A stretch of 42,538 nt of DNA from Geobacteraceae bacterium. Its GTDB lineage: Bacteria > Desulfobacterota > Desulfuromonadia > Geobacterales > Geobacteraceae. The notes under the pieces are model-generated. The model saw only the letters and a program-made list of their open reading frames with translations. It searched no databases and was not told the DNA's origin. Within the stretch, counting starts at the first letter, position 1. The number at the start of each line of letters is the position of its first letter. The stretch is from NCBI GenBank assembly GCA_017861285.1, contig JAGFXO010000006.1, forward strand, positions 1 through 42,538, in the 5' to 3' direction. Position numbers and translations under genes: made by a program. Positions 24,527-42,538 of this stretch are shown piece after piece.

Positions 24527-25297
24527 ATGATACACCCCTCAGCCATTGTGCACCCGCGTGCCGAGCTTGATGTCGATGTTGAAATAGGCCCATTTGCCGT
24601 TATCGATGAAAATGTAAAAATAGGACGCGGAACCAAGATCGGCGCCAGTGCCGTAATCCAGGGATGGACTGAAATAGGTGAATACAATGAGATCTTTCAT
24701 CTCTGTTCTGTGGGGGCTATCCCCCAGGATTTGAAGTACAAGGGTGAAAAAACCCGTCTCAGGATCGGCAACCGGAATACGATCCGTGAATTCGCTACGA
24801 TCCATCTGGGGACCGTCACCGGTGACGGAGAAACCACCATAGGCGATTCCAACCTTTTCATGGCATACTGCCACGTAGCCCATGATTGCCACATTGGCAA
24901 CAATGTTGTCATGGCAAACGGAGCCACACTTGCCGGGCATATAACCGTCGAGGACCATGCACGTCTCGGGGGGCTATCCGCTGTCCACCAGTACGTCAGG
25001 ATCGGAGCCCATGTCATGATAGGGGGAGGCGCCATGGTTGGTCAGGATGTTCCGCCTTACACCATTGCAGCCGGGGACAGGGCGACCCTGCATGGACTCA
25101 ATCTCGTGGGATTGAAAAGATCCGGCTTCTCAGAAGAGATTCTCGGAGACTTGAAAAAGGCGTACAAAATTCTGATCCGATCCAATCTGAGGACGGAAGA
25201 GGCTTTGGAAAAAATCAGGAGCGCAATAGCCATGTCGCCGGAAGTGGCTCATTTTGTAGAGTTCGTCGAAAAATCGGAAAGAGGGATATGTCGTTGA
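24527..25297 (+). CDS. lpxA: UDP-GlcNAc (or UDP-GlcNAc3N) acyltransferase
   Basis: A 256-residue left-handed beta-helix trimer that performs the first step of lipid A synthesis. Catalytic His119 lies in H-V-A-H-D, and P-Q-D-L-K-Y holds the Gln (67) that contacts the sugar. Gly167 aligns with E. coli Gly173, the ruler residue associated with a C14 hydroxyacyl chain; the chain-length reading is inference. ATG 24527 is preceded by CTGGAG at ideal spacing; an ATG 18 bases earlier has none. The last 10 bases overlap the gnnA-like gene. With gnnA/gnnB next door, the true acceptor may be the 3-amino sugar. Confidence 0.95.
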   Translation: MIHPSAIVHPRAELDVDVEIGPFAVIDENVKIGRGTKIGASAVIQGWTEIGEYNEIFHLCSVGAIPQDLKYKGEKTRLRIGNRNTIREFATIHLGTVTGDGETTIGDSNLFMAYCHVAHDCHIGNNVVMANGATLAGHITVEDHARLGGLSAVHQYVRIGAHVMIGGGAMVGQDVPPYTIAAGDRATLHGLNLVGLKRSGFSEEILGDLKKAYKILIRSNLRTEEALEKIRSAIAMSPEVAHFVEFVEKSERGICR

Positions 25298-26223
25298 GAA
25301 AATCTAGGGTAGCGGTAATAGGAGTTGGTTATCTGGGGAAGTTTCACGCGGAGAAATACTCCATGTTGCCCAACGCTGAACTGGTTGGAGTTGTCGATAT
25401 CGATCCGGAGAAGGCTGACGAAGTCGCGTCCGCATTAGGTACGACCCCCTTTGCCGATTATCGCGATCTGCTGGACAAGGTTGATGCTGTCAGTATAGCC
25501 GTCCCGACAGTGTGCCATTATCAGGTCGCTCGCGAATTCCTGTCCCATGGCGTGCATATTCTCCTTGAAAAGCCCATAACAAGTACGGTTGAGGAAGCTG
25601 ACGAGCTGATCAGGATTGCACACGAACAGAACGTGGTCTTGCAGGTTGGCCACATAGAGAGGTTCAATCCTGCCATAATGGCACTGGACGGTGTGCTCAA
25701 CGGTCCGCGTTTCATAGAATCGATCCGTATTGCTCCCTTCAAGCCGCGCGGCACCGATGTCAACGTCGTTATTGACCTGATGATCCACGATATCGACATT
25801 ATTCAGAACATTGTTCGCTCACCGGTTCGACAAATTCACTCAATTGGGGCTCCGGTTTTTACCTCGGAAGAAGACATAGCGAATGCACGCATAATTTTCG
25901 AGAATGGCTGCGTTGCCAATGTAACGGCAAGCAGGATAAGCATGAAGAGTGAGCGAAGGATGCGAATTTTCCAGCCTGACGCTTATATAACCCTGGATTT
26001 TCAGCACAAGAAAGTGGCTGTGCTCCGCAAGGGGGACGGAGAGATGTTCCCCGGCGTTCCCAATGTCAAAATAGAAGAAAAAGTGCTCGAGCAGGTCGAT
26101 GCCCTGAAGGAAGAGATAAGTTCTTTCCTGGAGTCGGTCCAATCGGGGAAAACTCCCGTAGTTACCGGAGAGGACGGGAAAAGGGCATTGGAAATCGCAC
26201 TTCTGATTAATACCAAACTTTAA
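25288..26223 (+). CDS. gnnA: Gfo/Idh/MocA oxidoreductase, probable UDP-GlcNAc 3-dehydrogenase (GnnA-like)
   Basis: A 311-residue dehydrogenase with a Rossmann start (V-I-G-V-G-Y-L-G at 10-17), the E-K-P signature (94-96) whose Lys is catalytic in this family, and M-I-H-D-I-D-I-I with the conserved His. GnnA from Acidithiobacillus ferrooxidans oxidises the 3-OH of UDP-GlcNAc so that GnnB can transaminate it. In that organism the pair also lies between lpxA and lpxB, to my recollection. The start ATG 25288 has GAGGG upstream and overlaps lpxA by 10 bases. The family is secure; the specific reaction is inferred from context. A WbpB-like role is the main alternative. Confidence 0.72.
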   Translation: MSLRKSRVAVIGVGYLGKFHAEKYSMLPNAELVGVVDIDPEKADEVASALGTTPFADYRDLLDKVDAVSIAVPTVCHYQVAREFLSHGVHILLEKPITSTVEEADELIRIAHEQNVVLQVGHIERFNPAIMALDGVLNGPRFIESIRIAPFKPRGTDVNVVIDLMIHDIDIIQNIVRSPVRQIHSIGAPVFTSEEDIANARIIFENGCVANVTASRISMKSERRMRIFQPDAYITLDFQHKKVAVLRKGDGEMFPGVPNVKIEEKVLEQVDALKEEISSFLESVQSGKTPVVTGEDGKRALEIALLINTKL

Positions 26224-26288
26224 ATATTTTCCGGATGATCGTGGTCCGGGAAACTCCGGGCTCCGATGCCGATAAAGGATACACAGAC

Positions 26289-27380
26289 ATGATTCCAATG
26301 GTAGATCTGAAAACCCAATACCTTTCGATGAAGGAGGAAATTGATAGGGGGATACTTGAAGCCCTCGAGAAATGTCAGTTCATTCTCGGGCCCAATGTTT
26401 CCGCATTCGAAGAGGAGGCCGCCGCGTATCTCGGTGCTAAAAACGCTGTTTCCGTTGCATCTGGTACGGATGCATTGCACCTCGCGCTTGCTGCTTCGGG
26501 GATTGGGAAAGGTGACGAAGTTATTACAACGCCTTTTACCTTTATTGCCACCGCGGAAGCTATCCGCTATGTCGGAGCCAACCCGGTATTTGTCGATATT
26601 GATCCGTATACATTCAATATTGACCCGGCTAAAATCGAGGAGGCAATCACACCCGCGACTAAGGCGGTTATTCCTGTTCATCTCTTCGGACAACCGGCCG
26701 ACATGGATACCATTGAAAAAGTTTGCAAACGTCACGGCTTGCTAATCATCGAAGACTGTGCCCAATCTTTTGGTGCCCTTGCCGGGAAGTGCATGACGGG
26801 AACAATCGGCAGCATGGGGTGCTTCAGTTTTTTCCCCAGCAAGAATCTGGGTTGTTACGGTGATGGCGGGATGATATCCACGAACTGTCCCGAACTTGCC
26901 GCGAGAATACGTGTGCTAAGAAATCACGGCAGCGAAATTAGATATCACCATTCGACGATCGGATATAACAGCAGACTTGACGAGATCCAGGCAGTCATAC
27001 TCCGGGCAAAGTTGAAGCGCATAACATCTTTCAACGAAGGCCGCAGAAGGGTTGCGGGGTTATACACATCATTGCTTGAAAATACAGGTATTGCATGCCC
27101 GTATGAAGACGGCAAGGGCACCCATGTTTATCATCAATATACGGTCCTGACCGACAAACGCGACAAAATCATGCAGGTGCTTTCTTCAGCCGGGATCGCT
27201 TCGGCTATTTATTACCCGATACCGCTGCACCGGCAGGAAGTTTTTGCCGAGGAATACAAAAGCGTAACGCTGCCGGTAAGTGAAAGAGTGTCTTCACGCT
27301 GCATGTCTCTTCCGGTTTTTCCCGAGATGACCGAGGAGCAGGTACGGGAAGTCGTGGGAGTAATAAAAGAAGCACTTTAG
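26289..27380 (+). CDS. gnnB: DegT/DnrJ/EryC1 aminotransferase, probable GnnB-like
   Basis: A 363-residue PLP-dependent sugar aminotransferase. S-G-T-D-A-L-H-L-A-L (58-67) and E-D-C-A-Q-S-F-G hold the cofactor phosphate and ring (Asp156), and Lys185 in F-F-P-S-K-N-L-G forms the Schiff base. P-L-H-x-Q near the end is typical. In the proposed pathway it uses glutamate to turn UDP-3-keto-GlcNAc into UDP-GlcNAc3N. ATG 26289 starts the family-like M-I-P-M-V-D-L-K-x-Q with AAAGGA upstream. It directly follows the dehydrogenase and precedes lpxB, which favours a lipid A role. WbpE-type function in surface sugar synthesis is the alternative. Confidence 0.72.
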   Translation: MIPMVDLKTQYLSMKEEIDRGILEALEKCQFILGPNVSAFEEEAAAYLGAKNAVSVASGTDALHLALAASGIGKGDEVITTPFTFIATAEAIRYVGANPVFVDIDPYTFNIDPAKIEEAITPATKAVIPVHLFGQPADMDTIEKVCKRHGLLIIEDCAQSFGALAGKCMTGTIGSMGCFSFFPSKNLGCYGDGGMISTNCPELAARIRVLRNHGSEIRYHHSTIGYNSRLDEIQAVILRAKLKRITSFNEGRRRVAGLYTSLLENTGIACPYEDGKGTHVYHQYTVLTDKRDKIMQVLSSAGIASAIYYPIPLHRQEVFAEEYKSVTLPVSERVSSRCMSLPVFPEMTEEQVREVVGVIKEAL

Positions 27381-28601: not shown

Positions 28602-30317
28602 ATGAATTTGTTTGCGAGGGTTTTACGGTACAGTAAGCCCTACTGGTGGAGAATTACAGTCGCCATAATAGCTACTGTGGGTGTGGCTGGCATGGACGGG
28701 GCTATCGCTTACTTGGTCAAACCGGTTTTGGAAAGGATTTTTTCCGAAAAGGATATGGGGATATTCCTTATCCTTCCGCTGGGCGTGATTGCGGTATTTG
28801 CGTTCCGCAGTGTTTGCCGTTTTGTATATGAATATTTCATTCAAACCGCGGGGCAACTGGCGATACAGGATATAAGGCAGGATCTCTACCGCAAGCACAT
28901 GAGCCTGTCCATGCGTTTTTTCAACAACAACCCGACAGGAAACCTCATGTCGCGAATTTTGAACGATGTCAGCGTCATGCAGGAAGGTGTTGCAAACATC
29001 GTAACCGGCTTGCTTCGGGAGGGCTTTACCGCCTTTGGGCTCCTGGGAGTTATTTTCTACCGTAACTGGCAGCTTGCAATTATCTCCTTCATCGCCATAC
29101 CCGTGACCGTATACCCGGCACAGAAAATAGGCAAGCGTATCAAGAAACTTTCTTCCCAAAGCCTCGGCAAGATGGGGATCATATCCCATATCCTTCAGGA
29201 AACGTTTTCCGGCATAAAGGTTATCAAGGCCTTTGGTCTGGAAGAAAGGGAAGTCGGCAAGTTTGCCAAATTCAACAATGAGTTTTATCACATCATCAGG
29301 AAAACGATCAAATATGCCGCAATGTCGACTCCCGTTATGGAGTTGATAACTTCTTTCGGAATCGCTGCGGTAATTTGGTATGGCGGCAGTCTGGTCATTC
29401 AGGGTAAAATGACAGGTGCGGAATTCTTTTCATTCATGGCTGCAATGGTAATGCTGTATAGCCCTGTGAAAAAACTGCTTGGAACCTATAATGTCATACA
29501 GCGTTCCGTCGGCGCTGCCGAAAGGGTCTTTGCCATCCTTGACGAGAAACCAGAAATCCAGGATGGGCCGCTTTCAAGGGATTTTCTTCGTGCTGCAGGG
29601 GATGTAGAATTCAGAAATGTATCTTTTTGTTATAACGAGGAATATGTAGTAAAGAATGTCAATCTGTCAGCCCGTCCTGGGGAAGTGATTGCCCTCGTCG
29701 GACCTTCGGGCGGGGGGAAGACAACCCTGGTTTCGCTCGTTCCCCGTTTTTATGAGGTGTCTTCAGGGGCTATATACGTCGACGGTCTGGATATCAGGGA
29801 ACTGAAACTTCGGGACTTGATGCAGCAAATTGCGCTGGTCGACCAGGAAACGATCCTCTTTAACGATACGATCGAGAATAATATAAAATATGGAAAGCCG
29901 GATGCAACTCGTGAAGAAGTAGAGGCAGCGGCAAAGGCGGCATTTGCACACGAATTCATCACTGAATTGCCCGAAGGCTACGAAACCAATATCGGTGACC
30001 GGGGTGTCAGGGTTTCCGGTGGCCAGCGGCAGCGAATATGCATCGCCCGAGCCATTCTCAAGAATGCACCGATCCTCATTCTGGATGAAGCGACCAGCGC
30101 TCTCGATACGGAAAGTGAACAAATGGTTCAGAAGGCACTTAATAACCTTATGTCGAACCGCACAACTTTTGTTATTGCCCATCGCCTTTCGACCATTCTC
30201 CATGCGGACAAGATCGCGGTCATAGACAAAGGAGAAATCGTCGAGTCCGGCACTCACCACGAACTGCTGGAAAATGGCGGCCTTTACAGAAAGCTATACG
30301 AAATGCAGTTTGCGTGA
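28602..30317 (+). CDS. msbA: Lipid A export ABC transporter MsbA (fused permease-ATPase)
   Basis: A 571-residue half-transporter with six helices (about 15-310, with the F-F-N-N-N-P-T-G motif) and a nucleotide-binding domain with Walker A G-P-S-G-G-G-K-T-T (from about 367), signature V-S-G-G-Q-R-Q-R, and Walker B I-L-I-L-D-E-A-T-S-A-L-D. It flips lipid A-core across the inner membrane. It begins 8 bases after lpxB and precedes waaA and lpxK, as in many Gram-negatives. AAGGGA serves as ribosome-binding site. Confidence 0.92.
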   Translation: MNLFARVLRYSKPYWWRITVAIIATVGVAGMDGAIAYLVKPVLERIFSEKDMGIFLILPLGVIAVFAFRSVCRFVYEYFIQTAGQLAIQDIRQDLYRKHMSLSMRFFNNNPTGNLMSRILNDVSVMQEGVANIVTGLLREGFTAFGLLGVIFYRNWQLAIISFIAIPVTVYPAQKIGKRIKKLSSQSLGKMGIISHILQETFSGIKVIKAFGLEEREVGKFAKFNNEFYHIIRKTIKYAAMSTPVMELITSFGIAAVIWYGGSLVIQGKMTGAEFFSFMAAMVMLYSPVKKLLGTYNVIQRSVGAAERVFAILDEKPEIQDGPLSRDFLRAAGDVEFRNVSFCYNEEYVVKNVNLSARPGEVIALVGPSGGGKTTLVSLVPRFYEVSSGAIYVDGLDIRELKLRDLMQQIALVDQETILFNDTIENNIKYGKPDATREEVEAAAKAAFAHEFITELPEGYETNIGDRGVRVSGGQRQRICIARAILKNAPILILDEATSALDTESEQMVQKALNNLMSNRTTFVIAHRLSTILHADKIAVIDKGEIVESGTHHELLENGGLYRKLYEMQFA

Positions 30318-30347
30318 ATACTGACGAAATAATATTGAGCGAATTGA

Positions 30348-30373
30348 TTTTAGTAGGGATATCCCTGCTAAAA
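30348..30373. repeat. Near-perfect 13+13 inverted repeat upstream of waaA
   Basis: TTTTAGTAGGGAT (30348-30360) is followed immediately by ATCCCTGCTAAAA (30361-30373), differing from a perfect palindrome at one pair. There is no loop and no T run, so it is more like a protein-binding operator or a transposition remnant than a terminator. It lies in the 142-base gap between msbA and waaA. Confidence 0.5.
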
Positions 30374-30459
30374 CGTGTATTGGTGCTTATGCAAGGGATT
30401 ACCCAGCCTCCATCCATAATGAGGACTGATATAGGGGATTGCCCCCCTTTCTACGAAAT

Positions 30460-31746
30460 ATGATTTATTTCCTTTATGATGTAATTTTGTATCTGGCCTC
30501 GCCTTTTTTGATCGGGTACCATGTTTTCCGCTCCCTGACCAGGGGCCGGCCTTCAAGCCTTGCCGGCCGTTCAGGCAGACTCTCGTCTGAAGAACTGATG
30601 AAGATCGAAGGTCATGAAACAATCTGGGTTCACTCGGTTTCGGTCGGTGAAACCATCGCTGTGAAATCACTCCTGGAGTCAATCAAAAAGCGCTTTCCGC
30701 AAAAAAAAATTGTCCTCTCCAATGGTACCGAAACAGGGAGAAGTATTTCTCTGAAACTGCAGGAAGCCGACCTCTGTATTTATTTCCCCTTCGACTTCGG
30801 CTTTGCCGTGCGCAGGGCAATGAATTCAATTCGCCCGTCACTGATAATTATCGTTGAAACGGAGATATGGCCGAACTTCCTGAGGAGGGCTCGGTTACAG
30901 GGGGTCCCCGTCGTTCTGGTTAACGGGCGAATATCAGATCGGTCCTTCAATAGATACCATGTGCTCAGACGGATATTCCGCATGGTGCTGAAGGATTTTT
31001 CCGCTCTCTGCATGCAGACTGTTGAGGATGCGCGTCGTATCGCTGCCATCGGCGCCGAGCCCTCGAAGGTTCATGTTGCCGGCAATCTCAAATATGACGT
31101 TCCGGTGAAACGGATATCCGATGAAGGCTTTGCCAACCTGAGGGATTCCTATCGCATCCCGCTGTCTGTTTCGGTTTTTACGGCCGGAAGCACCCACCAG
31201 GGAGAAGAAGAACAGGTAATCAGGGCATATCTGAAGCTCAGTCCCGAATCACGGAACCTTTTTCTGGTGTTGGTGCCGCGCCATCCTGAAAGGGTTGCAA
31301 AGGTATGCGAGATCCTTAAGGGGGAGGGGCTATCGTATACCCTTCGTTCCAGACTTGACGGGAGGAATTCCCCATTCAGGTCCGGAGAGGTTCTCGTTGT
31401 GGACACCATTGGAGAGTTGACGAAACTTTATTCGATTTCAGATCTCGTTTTTGTCGGGGGAAGTCTGGTTCCTGTCGGCGGGCATAACGTACTCGAACCG
31501 GTTTCATTTCATGTGCCGGTACTTTTTGGCCCCTATATGCACAATTTCAAGGAGATAGCGTCGCTTGTCCTGAGATTTAAATGCGGGGCTCAGGTGACGG
31601 ATGAAACTGAACTGACTCATGCCATGCGTGGTTTGCTGGGAGATGAAGGGAAAAGGCGGGATATGGGCCGGAACGGCGCTTCCTTGATTGAAGAAAACAG
31701 CGGTTCAATAGAACGTCACCTTGCGGTAATTGCTTCATTCCTGTGA
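30460..31746 (+). CDS. waaA: 3-deoxy-D-manno-octulosonic acid (Kdo) transferase
   Basis: A 428-residue GT30 enzyme adding Kdo to lipid IVA. It begins with a membrane anchor (M-I-Y-F-L-Y-D-V-I-L-Y), then E-T-I-W-V-H-S-V-S-V-G-E, V-E-T-E-I-W-P-N-F, G-N-L-K-Y-D, A-G-S-T-H-x-G-E-E, P-R-H-P-E-R and G-G-S-L-V-P-V-G-G-H-N-V-L-E-P near the end. ATG 30460 is chosen because it matches the family start; it lacks a Shine-Dalgarno. A TTG at 30439 in frame has AGGGG too close. The number of Kdo units added cannot be told. Confidence 0.95.
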   Translation: MIYFLYDVILYLASPFLIGYHVFRSLTRGRPSSLAGRSGRLSSEELMKIEGHETIWVHSVSVGETIAVKSLLESIKKRFPQKKIVLSNGTETGRSISLKLQEADLCIYFPFDFGFAVRRAMNSIRPSLIIIVETEIWPNFLRRARLQGVPVVLVNGRISDRSFNRYHVLRRIFRMVLKDFSALCMQTVEDARRIAAIGAEPSKVHVAGNLKYDVPVKRISDEGFANLRDSYRIPLSVSVFTAGSTHQGEEEQVIRAYLKLSPESRNLFLVLVPRHPERVAKVCEILKGEGLSYTLRSRLDGRNSPFRSGEVLVVDTIGELTKLYSISDLVFVGGSLVPVGGHNVLEPVSFHVPVLFGPYMHNFKEIASLVLRFKCGAQVTDETELTHAMRGLLGDEGKRRDMGRNGASLIEENSGSIERHLAVIASFL

Positions 31747-31860
31747 TTTCTTTAGTTAAGGCACTTGAGAGTGAGTGTCCTTGGGAACTACATCGACGTC
31801 AGGGTGGGGACATCCTTTGTGGGTATCCCTGTTCTGCGATTTATGCTTAAGGCCGGCAGA

Positions 31861-32928
31861 ATGTCTCTGGACCACTATTTCAGAAACCTCGTCGAAGGGA
31901 AACGGAAGGGATTGGATGCCTCAATTCTGCTTTTCCTTCTGAAGGTGTTGTCCGTACCGTACGCTATCATCATGCGCCTTCGGGCACTGGCGTATGAAAA
32001 GGGATTTTTCCGCTCACGGGCCTTGCCGAAACCGGTTGTCTCCGTCGGGAATATTACTGTTGGCGGGACAGGCAAAACCCCGGTGGTTTCCCTCATAGCA
32101 CGGTATTATATTGATCGGGGTAAGCGGGTTGCGGTGCTTTCCCGTGGCTACAGGGGTCAATCCAGGGGGAAAATTTCAATAGTTTCGGACGGCAGGAATG
32201 TTCTGATGACACCCGCTGAAGCAGGTGACGAACCTTGTATGCTGGCTGAAAAAATTCCTGGTCTCATTGTTGCTGTCGGCACTGACCGTTATCAGGCAGG
32301 TCTTCATCTCCTCGGACACCTGAACCCCGACATTTTCATTCTGGATGACGGTTTTCAGCACCAGCGTCTCCATCGCGATCTGAATATACTCCTCCTAGAT
32401 AATAACCGTCCCTTTGGCAACGGTAATGTTTTCCCCGCGGGGTTGCTGCGCGAACCGAAAGACGCTGCCGGGAGAGCCGATCTTATCGTTTATACCCGTT
32501 GCGCCGGAAATAAGCCCGTGGGAAATGCGGAGGGGATTCCGTTCTGCGTCTCCAGCCATGTGCTTGCCGGTTTTGTTACCCTTCCCGGTGGAGTTATGGA
32601 GCCGCTCTCAAGCCTATCCCATTTGCGCGGGGTTGCCTTTGCCGGCATTGCGGAGCCGTCCCCCTTTTTCTCCATGCTTGAGGAGGAAGGGTTGATCATA
32701 GCCAAAAAAATAAGTTTTCCTGACCATTGCAAGTACGGAGAAGATGAAGTGTCGGAGATTGTTTCAACAAGGGAAGCGGTCGAGGCTGATTATGTCATTA
32801 CCACGGAAAAAGATTCAGTCAAATTGTCTCCTTATCTGTCGCGACTTGGCGGGATTCATGCGGCAGTCCTGGATATACGTATCCCCGATATGGCGATTCT
32901 TACTGATAAGCTTGAAAAACTGCTGTAG
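31861..32928 (+). CDS. lpxK: Tetraacyldisaccharide 4'-kinase
   Basis: A 355-residue P-loop kinase that phosphorylates the 4' position of lipid A. It has an N-terminal membrane-associated helix, V-G-N-I-T-V-G-G-T-G-K-T-P (Walker A), S-R-G-Y-R-G, D-D-G-F-Q-H-Q-R-L-H-R-D (metal and ATP site) and a C-terminal lobe with T-T-E-K-D. ATG 31861 (M-S-L-D-H-Y-F) fits the start of related LpxK proteins. The frame is open back to TTG 31765, which would add 32 residues not typical of the family. It is followed by the ycaR-like gene, as in E. coli. Confidence 0.93.
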   Translation: MSLDHYFRNLVEGKRKGLDASILLFLLKVLSVPYAIIMRLRALAYEKGFFRSRALPKPVVSVGNITVGGTGKTPVVSLIARYYIDRGKRVAVLSRGYRGQSRGKISIVSDGRNVLMTPAEAGDEPCMLAEKIPGLIVAVGTDRYQAGLHLLGHLNPDIFILDDGFQHQRLHRDLNILLLDNNRPFGNGNVFPAGLLREPKDAAGRADLIVYTRCAGNKPVGNAEGIPFCVSSHVLAGFVTLPGGVMEPLSSLSHLRGVAFAGIAEPSPFFSMLEEEGLIIAKKISFPDHCKYGEDEVSEIVSTREAVEADYVITTEKDSVKLSPYLSRLGGIHAAVLDIRIPDMAILTDKLEKLL

Positions 32929-38070: not shown

Positions 38071-38739
38071 ATGGGGAAGAACGATAAATTATATCTATTT
38101 GTAATGGCAATAATCGTATTAGGAATGATTTCCTTGTTTGTCGGAACTGAATTAGTTGATGAAGGTACAAGGACGTTTATTGCCGGTGAAAACGGACCGA
38201 TCGAAACAGCCTCTGCTATCGGGTATATGGCTGTTCTAATTATAATGTTAGTGCAGGGAGGGTGGGGCTACCTTAAAAGCCACGCCTATATATTCGCCCT
38301 AGTGGCCGCCCTGGGACTTAGGGAACTGGATTTCGATAAGAGATTCACGAAAATGGGCATCCTTAAAAGCAAGTTCTATGTCAGCCCTGAGGTTCCCTAT
38401 ACAGAAAAAATAATTGGATTTCTTGTCATTCTCATCCTTCTCTATTGTGTCATTTTGTTGCTCAGAAGATATTTACGTTCTTTCCTGGCACGTTGCCTTA
38501 AAGAAGTTGTCCCGATGAGCGCAGGAATTTCACTGTTCTTTATCATACTATCGAAAAGTATCGATGGATTGTCTAGAAAATTGGGAAGCCTGGGGATAAA
38601 CATATCACATCGGATTTCTGCATCTGCCGAGAGCATTGAGGAGATTGTTGAACTTGGCATACCTCTTATGCTGCTGGTTTCAGCGATTGCTTTTTTTAAC
38701 AGCACCAATAAAAGCACCCAGTACGACGAAAGGGTGTAA
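38071..38739 (+). CDS. Uncharacterised multi-pass membrane protein
   Basis: A 222-residue protein with six apparent hydrophobic helices (about 7-26, 45-62, 70-84, 112-131, 148-162 and 190-208). Between the first two lies G-E-N-G-P-I-E-T-A-S-A, and between the third and fourth a polar loop with L-R-E-L-D-F-D-K-R-F-T-K-M-G and K-S-K-F-Y. I recall similar uncharacterised proteins with the same loop elsewhere, but no function. GGAG precedes ATG 38071. It sits amid LPS glycosyltransferases, so a role in envelope sugar metabolism or in sensing is possible. No function is assigned. Confidence 0.7.
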   Translation: MGKNDKLYLFVMAIIVLGMISLFVGTELVDEGTRTFIAGENGPIETASAIGYMAVLIIMLVQGGWGYLKSHAYIFALVAALGLRELDFDKRFTKMGILKSKFYVSPEVPYTEKIIGFLVILILLYCVILLLRRYLRSFLARCLKEVVPMSAGISLFFIILSKSIDGLSRKLGSLGINISHRISASAESIEEIVELGIPLMLLVSAIAFFNSTNKSTQYDERV

Positions 38740-38858: not shown

Positions 38859-39902
38859 ATGAGAGTACTGATTGTAAAACTTTCCGCCCTTGGCGACATC
38901 ATTCACGCCCTGCCGGTGCTCGACTACCTTCATAGAGTGTCGCCTGGGATTGAGGTCGACTGGGTTGTTGAAGAGCCTTTTCTGAATATTCTTGAAGGGA
39001 ATCCGCTGATCAGTCGTCTTCACGTGGTTCGGACGAAGGTGTGGAGAAAACAGCCATTCTCCGCAGTTACCAGGCGCGAGGCCGGCAATGTGATGCGTGC
39101 GCTTCGGGAGCGGAATTACGACATGGTGTTCGATATTCAGGGGAATATAAAGAGCGGGATCGTCACGGCACTTTCCGGGGTTAAGAAGCGGTATGGATTT
39201 GATCGTCCCGGAGTGAGGGAACTCCCTAATCTTCTCTTTACCACGAATCATGTACCATTGCGCCGGAACGATATTCATATTTCCGCAAGGTCCCTGAGAG
39301 TGGTCAGCGTCCCGTTCGGTAAGGATTACCAGGGAATGCCCCTGAAGTCAGATATTCCCACTGATCCGGCGAGCGATTATGCCGCTGAAGCTTTTCTTGC
39401 GACACTATCTGATGGGCTGGTATTCCTCTTTCATCCCGGAACAACGTGGGATACCAAGCTATGGCATGAGCCAGGGTGGATCGAATTGGGGAAAGAGGTC
39501 CTCGAAAGATTCCCGGATGCAACGATTCTGCTTTCGGCAGGTAATGAACAGGAACGTTTGGCGGTCGAGCGGATCAGTGCAGGAATCGGAACCAATGCGA
39601 GGCCCTTGCCCAAGACTTCCATAAGCGGTTTCGCATCGTTTCTGAAAAAGGTCGATCTTGTGGTCGGGGGTGATACGGGACCCATTCATATGGCGGCGGC
39701 TGTGGGAACACCGACGGTCTCCTTTTATCGCGCCACTGATGCCAAGCGAAACGGGCCTTTGGGTGAAAATCATGTCACCGTTCAGGCACCAATGCATTGT
39801 CGTGCATGCTTGCGCAAGGAATGCGACAAGGATGCAGCATGCAGGGAAAGCATCAAGGTTGAGTATATCCTGAAAGGGATAGAAAAGATCTTAGAACGCT
39901 GA
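38859..39902 (+). CDS. waaC: Lipopolysaccharide heptosyltransferase I
   Basis: A 347-residue GT9 enzyme that adds the first L-glycero-D-manno-heptose to Kdo. It starts V-L-I-V-K-L-S-A-L-G-D-I-I-H-A-L-P-V-L, the WaaC hallmark. D-I-Q-G-N-I-K-S-G, H-P-G-T-T-W-D-T-K-L-W and G-G-D-T-G-P-I-H-M-A-A-A (donor site) follow. GAGGGAG lies upstream at a long spacing. Its composition fits the rest of the chromosome, unlike the AT-rich genes on both sides. Confidence 0.92.
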   Translation: MRVLIVKLSALGDIIHALPVLDYLHRVSPGIEVDWVVEEPFLNILEGNPLISRLHVVRTKVWRKQPFSAVTRREAGNVMRALRERNYDMVFDIQGNIKSGIVTALSGVKKRYGFDRPGVRELPNLLFTTNHVPLRRNDIHISARSLRVVSVPFGKDYQGMPLKSDIPTDPASDYAAEAFLATLSDGLVFLFHPGTTWDTKLWHEPGWIELGKEVLERFPDATILLSAGNEQERLAVERISAGIGTNARPLPKTSISGFASFLKKVDLVVGGDTGPIHMAAAVGTPTVSFYRATDAKRNGPLGENHVTVQAPMHCRACLRKECDKDAACRESIKVEYILKGIEKILER

Positions 39903-39981: not shown

Positions 39982-40953
39982 GTGAAACAGCCGGCAGTTA
40001 GTATTTGTATTCCAACCTATAATTACGGCAAATATATCGGTGAGGCAATCGAATCTGTACTCTCACAGACATTCGATGATTTTGAGCTTGTAATCATTGA
40101 TGATTGTTCTGATGATCAGACAGATAGTGTCATTAACAAATATAATGTTATCGATAAATCCATCAGGTACTATAGAAATAAAAACAATATAGGGATGGTA
40201 AATAACTGGAACCTGTGCTTGAGAGAAGCTAGAGGGAAATACGTAAAATTTTTGTTTGCAGATGACAAATTTGTCGATAATGATGCTGTAAAGATCATGT
40301 ATGAAAGTCTTGAGGTAAACAAATCAGCTATAATGGCTTGTTCTGCAAGGCTTGTAATTGATGAAAGATCCAATGCGATAAATGCCTGGTCTTGCTTTAC
40401 AAATGATTCTTTAATTGATGGGCGTGAAATGATCAAACAATGCATCCTGGAGCAGCGAAACATTATTGGCGAGCCGACAGCAGTCATGTACAGAAGGGAA
40501 ATTGGCACGAGAGGGTTCGATCCATCTTTTCGGCAGTTGGTAGACTTGGAAATGTGGCTTCATTTGCTTTCCCATGGGGATCTCGTCTATTTTAACAAGC
40601 CCCTTGTAGCTTTCAGGCAGCATTCCAAACAGCAGTCATATATAAACAGCCAGACTACTGTTTGTCTGCATGAAATGGCAACGCTGTCAAAAAGTTATTT
40701 CAGTAATCCTTCTGGAGTTGAGAAAAGAATCAGTAAATCAATCATTAATTATAGTTATCGTCATAAAATATGGAAATCGTACCGAAACGGAATAATGTCA
40801 AAGATCGAAGCTCACAACATTATTGGCAGCCTAATACAAAGGGGACTATTTTATTTAAATATGCCTCTCTATAAGGTTCTAAATCCTCTTTTTAAATACG
40901 CGATTAAATCAAGACGAACTAAGTTGTCAAGCAGAAAACTGGAAGTGAAGTGA
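39982..40953 (+). CDS. GT2 glycosyltransferase
   Basis: A 323-residue GT2 with S-I-C-I-P-T-Y-N-Y-G-K-Y-I, I-I-D-D-C-S-D-D-Q-T, N-I-G-M-V-x-N-W-N and L-F-A-D-D-K-F (metal site; Asp-Asp in place of D-x-D). D-L-E-M-W-L-H-L follows. The GTG start at 39982 has GGAG at good spacing. It is AT-rich and typical of O-antigen or capsule genes. It is followed after 23 bases by the RgpF-methyltransferase gene, probably in one operon. The sugar is unknown. Confidence 0.82.
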   Translation: MKQPAVSICIPTYNYGKYIGEAIESVLSQTFDDFELVIIDDCSDDQTDSVINKYNVIDKSIRYYRNKNNIGMVNNWNLCLREARGKYVKFLFADDKFVDNDAVKIMYESLEVNKSAIMACSARLVIDERSNAINAWSCFTNDSLIDGREMIKQCILEQRNIIGEPTAVMYRREIGTRGFDPSFRQLVDLEMWLHLLSHGDLVYFNKPLVAFRQHSKQQSYINSQTTVCLHEMATLSKSYFSNPSGVEKRISKSIINYSYRHKIWKSYRNGIMSKIEAHNIIGSLIQRGLFYLNMPLYKVLNPLFKYAIKSRRTKLSSRKLEVK

Positions 40954-40976: not shown

Positions 40977-42538
40977 GTGAAATTAATGATATATGCGCAT
41001 TATGACGCTGATAACAAAATCAAACCGTATGTTGTTTATATGTTGAACAAGCTTAAGAACCACTATGATGATATCATCTTTGTGACGAATTCTCAGCTTG
41101 AAGATGCAGAGTTAAATAAAATAAGGGCATTAGTCGTCAGCATCCATCAGAAAGATAATGTTGGCTACGATTTTGGCATGTGGAAACTTGCGATAGAAAA
41201 AACAGATATCAATTTGTACGATGAACTAACGCTGGTTAATTCAAGCATTTACGGACCAGTCTATTCCATGCATGAAGTTTATTCTCATATGGATAAGGTT
41301 GATTGTGATTTCTGGGGTATAACTGAAAGTTACGAGCTTGATAGGCACTTACAGACCTATTTTCTGGTCTTTAAGCGGAACGTTATACAGTCTGATGCGT
41401 TTAAATCATTTTGGAGTGGCGTCCTAGAATACAGCAACAAGTTACAAACCATTCGAAGTTACGAAATTGGATTGACGCAATGGTTGTTGCAGCACGGATT
41501 CAAACCCGGTGTATATTGTTCTTGGCAAAGACTTGTCAAGCGCTGCAGACATGAAAAAGTTAAGAAATTAAGAAAGCCGATGAATCCTACTATAGCTTAT
41601 GGATTACAGTTGCTGAAACTCGAATCGCCTTTTGTGAAGCTTGAACTATTAAGGGATAATCCTTACAAGGTAAATCTCAATGAGGTTAGAAAACTGATTG
41701 TTGATGCGCATTATCCCGTTAGCTTTCTTCTTTCAGGAAAAGAAACTTGTAGTAACAATGTAAGTTCCGGAAATGAGGATCATTGTCCTCTTTGCGGTAG
41801 CGACGGTAAGCAAGCACACAAGAATTTGAGGGACAGGCTTGCACCCTACAGTCCTGAGAAATGGCGTATCTGGCGATGCAAGGGCCGAAAGTGCGGTATT
41901 TCGTGGCTTAAACCCATACCGACTCAAAATGAGTTGGAAGAAGCTTTCCAGGCAAATTCTATCCACGGAGAAAGTTTTGACGATGATTATTTTGCTCCTC
42001 AATATTCATTTGCAGGTTGGCTACTCTTGTCTGCTTGTAGAATTATGCAAAAAGTAATGAGGATTGAAAAGAAAAGGGAAAATTTCTATTTGCACGCTCT
42101 GATTGATGAAAAACCTGGCAGGTTGTTGGAAGTTGGATGCGGTTGCGGTGACAGGTTGGTCGCCCTAAGAAATTTAGGATGGGATGTTGAGAGGCAGGAG
42201 GTCGATCCTGTTGCAGTGAACTACTGTGTGGAGAAACAAGGCCTTCTTGTCTCTATAGACAGGTTCGAAGAACTGAAAGCAAATCATGAGTTATACGATA
42301 TCATATTGATGTCCCATTTCTTGGAGTGTGTTCAGGAACCCATGACTTTATTGAAAGATTGCTTGCGTTTACTAAAACCTGGTGGGAAATTGCTGCTGAC
42401 TACACCCAATAACAAGAGCCTGGGGCATTTCGTATATAAAAAATATTGGTTTTCACTGAATCCGCCCAGGCATTCGCTGATTTACACATCCTCTGCTTTA
42501 AAGAAACTTCTGTTTGAAGCGGGGTTTGATAAGGTAAA
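40977..42538 (+). CDS. RgpF-type rhamnan synthesis domain fused to zinc ribbon and SAM methyltransferase (runs off the window)
   Basis: The frame from GTG 40977 has no stop up to the window end, over 520 residues. Residues 1-260 match the RgpF/rhamnan synthesis F family: N-V-G-Y-D-F-G-M-W-K (near 61-70), L-V-N-S-S-I-Y-G-P-V, D-F-W-G-I-T, L-Q-T-Y-F-L-V-F and S-Y-E-I-G-L-T. Residues 270-306 form a zinc ribbon (Cys270, Cys273, Cys301, Cys306). Residues about 380-520 are a class I methyltransferase with L-L-E-V-G-C-G-C-G (motif I, near 383-391), D-I-I-L-M-S-H-F-L-E and L-K-P-G-G-K-L-L-L-T-T-P. GAGGGAG precedes the start; TTG 40971 is also possible. The methyltransferase may cap or modify the chain; this is inferred. 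The C-terminus is missing. Confidence 0.82.
   Translation, partial: MKLMIYAHYDADNKIKPYVVYMLNKLKNHYDDIIFVTNSQLEDAELNKIRALVVSIHQKDNVGYDFGMWKLAIEKTDINLYDELTLVNSSIYGPVYSMHEVYSHMDKVDCDFWGITESYELDRHLQTYFLVFKRNVIQSDAFKSFWSGVLEYSNKLQTIRSYEIGLTQWLLQHGFKPGVYCSWQRLVKRCRHEKVKKLRKPMNPTIAYGLQLLKLESPFVKLELLRDNPYKVNLNEVRKLIVDAHYPVSFLLSGKETCSNNVSSGNEDHCPLCGSDGKQAHKNLRDRLAPYSPEKWRIWRCKGRKCGISWLKPIPTQNELEEAFQANSIHGESFDDDYFAPQYSFAGWLLLSACRIMQKVMRIEKKRENFYLHALIDEKPGRLLEVGCGCGDRLVALRNLGWDVERQEVDPVAVNYCVEKQGLLVSIDRFEELKANHELYDIILMSHFLECVQEPMTLLKDCLRLLKPGGKLLLTTPNNKSLGHFVYKKYWFSLNPPRHSLIYTSSALKKLLFEAGFDKV

Follow-up and report, generated by a model that had tools for sequence, protein, structure and literature searches.

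The window, by which we mean the whole 42,538-nucleotide stretch of DNA analysed here, ends within an open reading frame that joins an RgpF-type module, a four-cysteine ribbon and a class I SAM-dependent methyltransferase in a single protein. With a probability that we put at roughly 55%, this protein is a bifunctional enzyme, a GT-A glycosyltransferase and an O-methyltransferase in one, by which a sugar of the lipopolysaccharide (LPS) core is added and methylated. In this reading we infer both activities, the acceptor, and the placing of the methyl group on the sugar that has just been added.

Extent and domain order of the fusion gene

The gene and the neighbours discussed below are made up of the following features.

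28602-32928, + strand: msbA, waaA (Kdo transferase) and lpxK, lipid A/inner-core genes
38859-39902, + strand: GT9 heptosyltransferase-family gene (Pfam)
39982-40953, + strand: GT2 glycosyltransferase, directly upstream of the fusion and overlapping its open frame
40977-42538, + strand: fusion gene, GTG start, 520 codons in the window, remainder on contig C29
40977-41700, + strand: RgpF-type module at the N-terminus, matching the N half of PF05045; predicted glycosyltransferase of GT-A fold (Pfam, own profile, AF2)
41784-41894, + strand: four-cysteine ribbon C-x2-C...C-x4-C, presumed zinc site (sequence and alignments)
42015-42074, + strand: amphipathic helix with a basic end, before the methyltransferase (hydrophobic-moment scan)
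42099-42533, + strand: class I SAM-dependent methyltransferase, Methyltransf_23 (Pfam)
42123-42158, + strand: SAM-binding motif I LLEVGCGCGDRL (E-x-G-x-G-x-G), intact in the window
Contig C29 (L085), from 43875 downwards: 3' end of the fusion, last 63 codons and the stop, in matching frame

The frame runs from 40950 to the end of the window without a stop, and it is open there because the window is the whole of one contig (C26) of a 225-contig draft genome. The GTG at 40977, which is also the start given by an earlier note on this DNA, aligns with the MKRLxxYAH start of the homologues and has AGGGAG about 9 bases upstream. The missing end was found by searching the same draft genome with the last 134 residues of the homologue in genome G053, which matched both the window end and the tip of contig C29 (E 1e-9 and 44% identity for the tip), with the stop lying 194 bases from the tip. 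The 63 residues from C29 align to residues 515-574 of the G053 protein (E 3e-14) and the window aligns up to residue 508, so about 6-7 residues are lost at the break. While we infer the C26/C29 junction itself, the true stop, for which the earlier note had suggested looking to the right of the window, is located, and the complete protein would have about 590 amino acids and no further domain.

The earlier note had read three parts in one open frame, and these are confirmed by Pfam and by the sequence. The methyltransferase matches Methyltransf_23 (PF13489) at E=6e-20, with 72 bits against a cut-off of 27, and its sequence relatives in the PDB are SAM methyltransferases. Between it and the RgpF module lies the ribbon, C-P-L-C ... 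C-K-G-R-K-C in the window, all four cysteines of which are invariant across the six fusions described below. The amphipathic helix corresponds to DSSP helix 354-373, in a low-confidence region of the AF2 model, and is a possible site of membrane contact. A complete 599-residue homologue has the same domain order (39% identity over residues 8-528), and with four further complete homologues, five in all, it bears out the consistent reading phase that had been claimed; together with the tail on C29, these homologues rule out a chance frame, a frameshift or a misassembly.

The RgpF-type module and its predicted fold

The match of the N-module to PF05045 is strong (E=4e-38; 131.8 bits against a gathering score of 25; 41073-41576), and our own profile of the module matches 40980-41750. 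The fusion resembles the RgpF family over model positions 1-171 of 503 (1-236 in relatives) but lacks the C-terminal half of the model, at about 258-503. The claim that the first 260 or so residues are RgpF-like therefore holds for the N half of the model, and to call the protein "rhamnan synthesis protein F" is to claim more than is known. In a sample of the phylum Desulfobacterota, some proteins match only about positions 1-236 and others only about 258-503, the C half being found in separate, larger proteins. The two halves are matched by different sets of proteins, L057-L074 as against L001 and L024-L027, and a profile comparison of the two halves as a duplicated module gave E 0.008 and a probability of 4.7%.

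A search by sequence found no solved-structure relative of the N-module. An AF2 model, in which pLDDT mostly exceeded 70 for about residues 11-180, matched mannosylglycerate synthase (2y4j; Z 11.4, 3.8 A over 186 residues) and heparosan synthase 2 (Z 11.3), with GlmU-type nucleotidyltransferases scoring similarly, and Foldseek returned GtrB, TarS and chondroitin polymerase. Nucleotidyltransferases, which share the GT-A fold, top the fold-match lists, and the module is predicted to have this shared fold. A conserved N-[SD]-S stands at the expected DxD position, after strand 92-97; some GT-A enzymes are without DxD. In the structure prediction, a check that the earlier note had proposed, the ribbon and methyltransferase part was modelled with low confidence because there were no alignment rows for it. 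Modelling the N-module by itself gave a worse result than the first model.

Recurrence and genomic setting

How often the fusion occurs, a question raised by the earlier note, was surveyed in 141 genomes of the order. PF05045 was matched in seven, and six of these carry the fusion (the window genome, G053, G106, G107, G115 and G130), with three families represented among them. In the remaining genome, G051, it is the other half of the model alone that matches, in a 975-residue frame. A search of 277 genomes of the class with our own profile gave no further match, no fusion was found in viral contigs, plasmids or phages, and a single viral scan with the methyltransferase half gave no match. Relatives of the N-module in a 395-genome sample of the phylum are frames of 330-370 residues without a methyltransferase, with the exception of one in G381 that runs into a contig end, and a relative from Marinimicrobia, 284 residues long, truly stands alone. 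Stand-alone ribbon methyltransferases of about 320-363 residues are common.

In a tree built from the ribbon and methyltransferase, the six fused methyltransferases form one clade (support 96/92), the sister group of which is the stand-alone Methyltransf_23 proteins L005, L006 and L007. These have the same methyltransferase and the same rarer Cx2C...Cx4C ribbon, but they have no RgpF module and sit in other polysaccharide clusters. The simplest reading of the tree is a single fusion event in the order, which would have joined two parts that each occur alone elsewhere, the N-module and a ribbon methyltransferase of the Cx4C type. The patchy presence of the gene fits an accessory outer-core cassette.

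Several related arrangements were encountered in the course of these searches. L069 (G496:C36) is a fusion in the reverse order, with Methyltransf_23, the C half of PF05045 and GT2 domains in a 1369-residue frame. On plasmid p5 of Azospirillum brasilense (L056, 975-3870), an RgpF-family gene follows a class I methyltransferase gene at a distance of 25 bases, an unfused equivalent of the pairing that speaks for the bifunctional reading. RgpF N-module genes also occur in two viral-labelled IMG/VR contigs (L041 and L042), beside a small gene (MMDVFRGR...) that is methyltransferase- or hydroxylase-like by eye.

That both halves occur alone could mean that two independent enzymes were fused only for co-expression, with the methyltransferase acting on another core sugar or on a nucleotide sugar. 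Conservation of the linker is poor (12-52% identity for all pairs except the near-identical G106 and G107), and in a sister species (G001), where there is no RgpF gene, the same locus has a ribbon methyltransferase standing alone just behind the first GT9 gene, an arrangement that fits the bifunctional reading as well. However, the fusion has been kept over three families, which is more than operon membership needs, and the methyltransferase half persists in one family (f4; G106, G107, G115 and G130) despite decay of its active site. We regard co-expression as the sole purpose of the fusion as unlikely.

The gene order in the window is lysS, lolC/D-like, bamA, ompH, lpxD, fabZ, lpxA, two sugar-amination genes, lpxB, msbA, waaA, lpxK, GT9, several GT2 genes, GT4, GT9, GT2 and the fusion, and the presence of msbA, waaA and lpxK marks an LPS-core biosynthesis locus. 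In the other five genomes, homologues of msbA, waaA or lpxK lie near the fusion where the examined stretch reaches, and GT9 and GT2 genes neighbour it at six of six loci; the fusion thus sits in a lipid A/LPS-core locus in all six genomes. In G381 the N-module relative, too, comes after a homologue of the GT2 gene that lies directly upstream of the fusion in the window (42% identity).

Three further observations concern these loci. Between lpxA and lpxB, the two sugar-amination genes (24886-27380) encode a Gfo/Idh oxidoreductase and a DegT aminotransferase, which we take to be the GnnA/GnnB arrangement and to imply a diamino-sugar lipid A with amide-linked chains. For a 222-residue frame at 38071-38739, NCBIfam gave no match and Pfam none over its cut-off. 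Immediately next to the f4 fusions (L024, 284-1378; L025; L027) is a conserved gene whose product has a GDSFS motif and looks like a sugar O-acetylation (AlgJ/SGNH-type) protein.

The earlier note had proposed that a rhamnose chain is built by the RgpF part and capped by the methyltransferase, perhaps setting the chain length. It is well established that WbdD-type enzymes set methyl-terminated chains (PMC3482155), in Klebsiella pneumoniae O7 a methyltransferase-kinase and rhamnosyltransferase modules are joined (PMC11231755), and rmlD is present in the draft genome that contains the window. Like the fusion, WbdD and the O7 terminator ORF6 have a methyltransferase in a polysaccharide enzyme, joined in O7 to glycosyltransferase modules, but they come with a kinase (O9a and O7), a coiled-coil ruler and an ABC-transporter O-antigen context, none of which was seen for the fusion. 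The linker of the fusion, about 37 residues long and rich in Asn and Ser, is not heptad-like as judged from its sequence, and no coiled-coil ruler is apparent. The scanned locus genes include no ABC exporter for O-antigen (Wzm/Wzt) and hold lipid A/core genes and MsbA instead, half of RgpF is missing, the draft genome has no rmlC match, and the methyltransferase has eroded, with loss of SAM-binding residues, in four of the six fusions. Chain extension with terminal methylation is therefore highly improbable, and this part of the earlier proposal was not upheld. Because of where the fusion lies, decoration of the core oligosaccharide, and not rhamnan building, is the reading we prefer.

Beyond the break, C29 encodes a GT2 protein, an 832-residue protein for which Pfam gave no match, and the products of rfbF, rfbG and rfbH, each of which scores above its NCBIfam cut-off; an epimerase and an acetolactate-synthase-like TPP enzyme follow. 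By their family assignments, the rfbFGH genes (ddhABC-type) would make a CDP-3,6-dideoxyhexose, and the set including the epimerase and the TPP enzyme suggests a 3,6-dideoxyhexose with a branched carbon, presumably yersiniose-like. As the locus in G001 and G002, neither of which has a PF05045 match, likewise terminates in rfbFGH, and as the fusion loci examined in families f3 and f4 gave no strong match to this set, rfbFGH is probably not tied to the fusion, and CDP-3,6-dideoxyhexose is not favoured as the donor.

State of the methyltransferase and proposed function

The methyltransferase looks intact in the window protein and in G053, where the full E-x-G-x-G-x-G and the acidic residue after strand 2 are kept and the two halves are about equally conserved between the proteins (40% identity for the RgpF half, 43% for the methyltransferase). 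In all four f4 genomes, strict motif I is absent, the altered sequences being IGGDRG, IGCDRG, QIGTGNE and LIVGADF, the acidic residue is lost, and the amphipathic helix before the methyltransferase is deleted. With the near-identical G106/G107 pair set apart, pairwise identity within f4 is 21-36% for the methyltransferase against 58-72% for the RgpF half. The alignments thus indicate loss of the SAM site from the methyltransferase half in f4 alongside conservation of the glycosyltransferase half, so methylation would not be a fixed part of the protein's job. From the residues it retains, the G130 fusion is very unlikely to bind SAM, and the G106 and G107 methyltransferases could conceivably still be active.

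The f4 fusions keep the ribbon cysteines, the YW...P stretch and the C-terminal tail, and the ribbon is identical between G106 and G107. Taken with the alteration of motif I and the acidic residue in G106, G107, G115 and G130 (erased in G130), this could mean that the methyltransferase fold is a non-catalytic part for acceptor binding or docking, in which catalysis was dispensable from early on. Such an account is improbable given that the window protein and G053 keep both the full motif and equal conservation of the halves, and the fast divergence in f4 also fits plain decay. A further possibility, less likely than not, is that the methyltransferase was captured once by a glycosyltransferase and was kept in one family as a pseudo-methyltransferase, serving as an LPS-core acceptor clamp or a membrane dock. 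If true, this would make the fusions a natural series from an active to a dead fused methyltransferase.

In the bifunctional reading that we prefer, the fusion would be a cytoplasmic LPS-core enzyme of about 590 residues and its gene an accessory outer-core cassette. The RgpF-type GT-A module would transfer one sugar onto the growing lipid A-core, and the ribbon-type SAM methyltransferase, held near the product by the fusion, would O-methylate that sugar or its neighbour before the molecule is exported by MsbA. Some LPS cores of related anaerobes carry O-methyl sugars; our literature search for LPS structures of related organisms returned nothing usable. A glycosyltransferase joined to a methyltransferase, the part of the earlier proposal that stands once rhamnan chain building is set aside, is the best functional reading. 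Functionally, the nearest described protein is Clostridioides difficile GT2 (CDR20291_0242) of flagellin type B glycosylation, which likewise has a glycosyltransferase and a class I methyltransferase in one protein; mutant mass spectrometry data assign two rhamnoses to it, and its authors propose rhamnose methylation as well (PMC5207246). It differs from the fusion in its PF00535 glycosyltransferase, in having no ribbon described and in its flagellin target. The literature search found no description of RgpF and a methyltransferase in the present order, which is weak evidence of absence. Bifunctional glycosyltransferase-methyltransferases being already known, the fusion is a new domain combination of known parts.

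The conserved fusion ties half of the widely annotated and structurally uncharacterised RgpF/PF05045 label to the building of the LPS core, and where only half of the model matches, the label "rhamnan synthesis F" should not be taken to mean that rhamnan is made. The preferred reading predicts a methylated core sugar, which could be sought by mass spectrometry, and the series of fusions from intact to eroded methyltransferases allows a test of whether it is methylation or the fold itself that has been retained.
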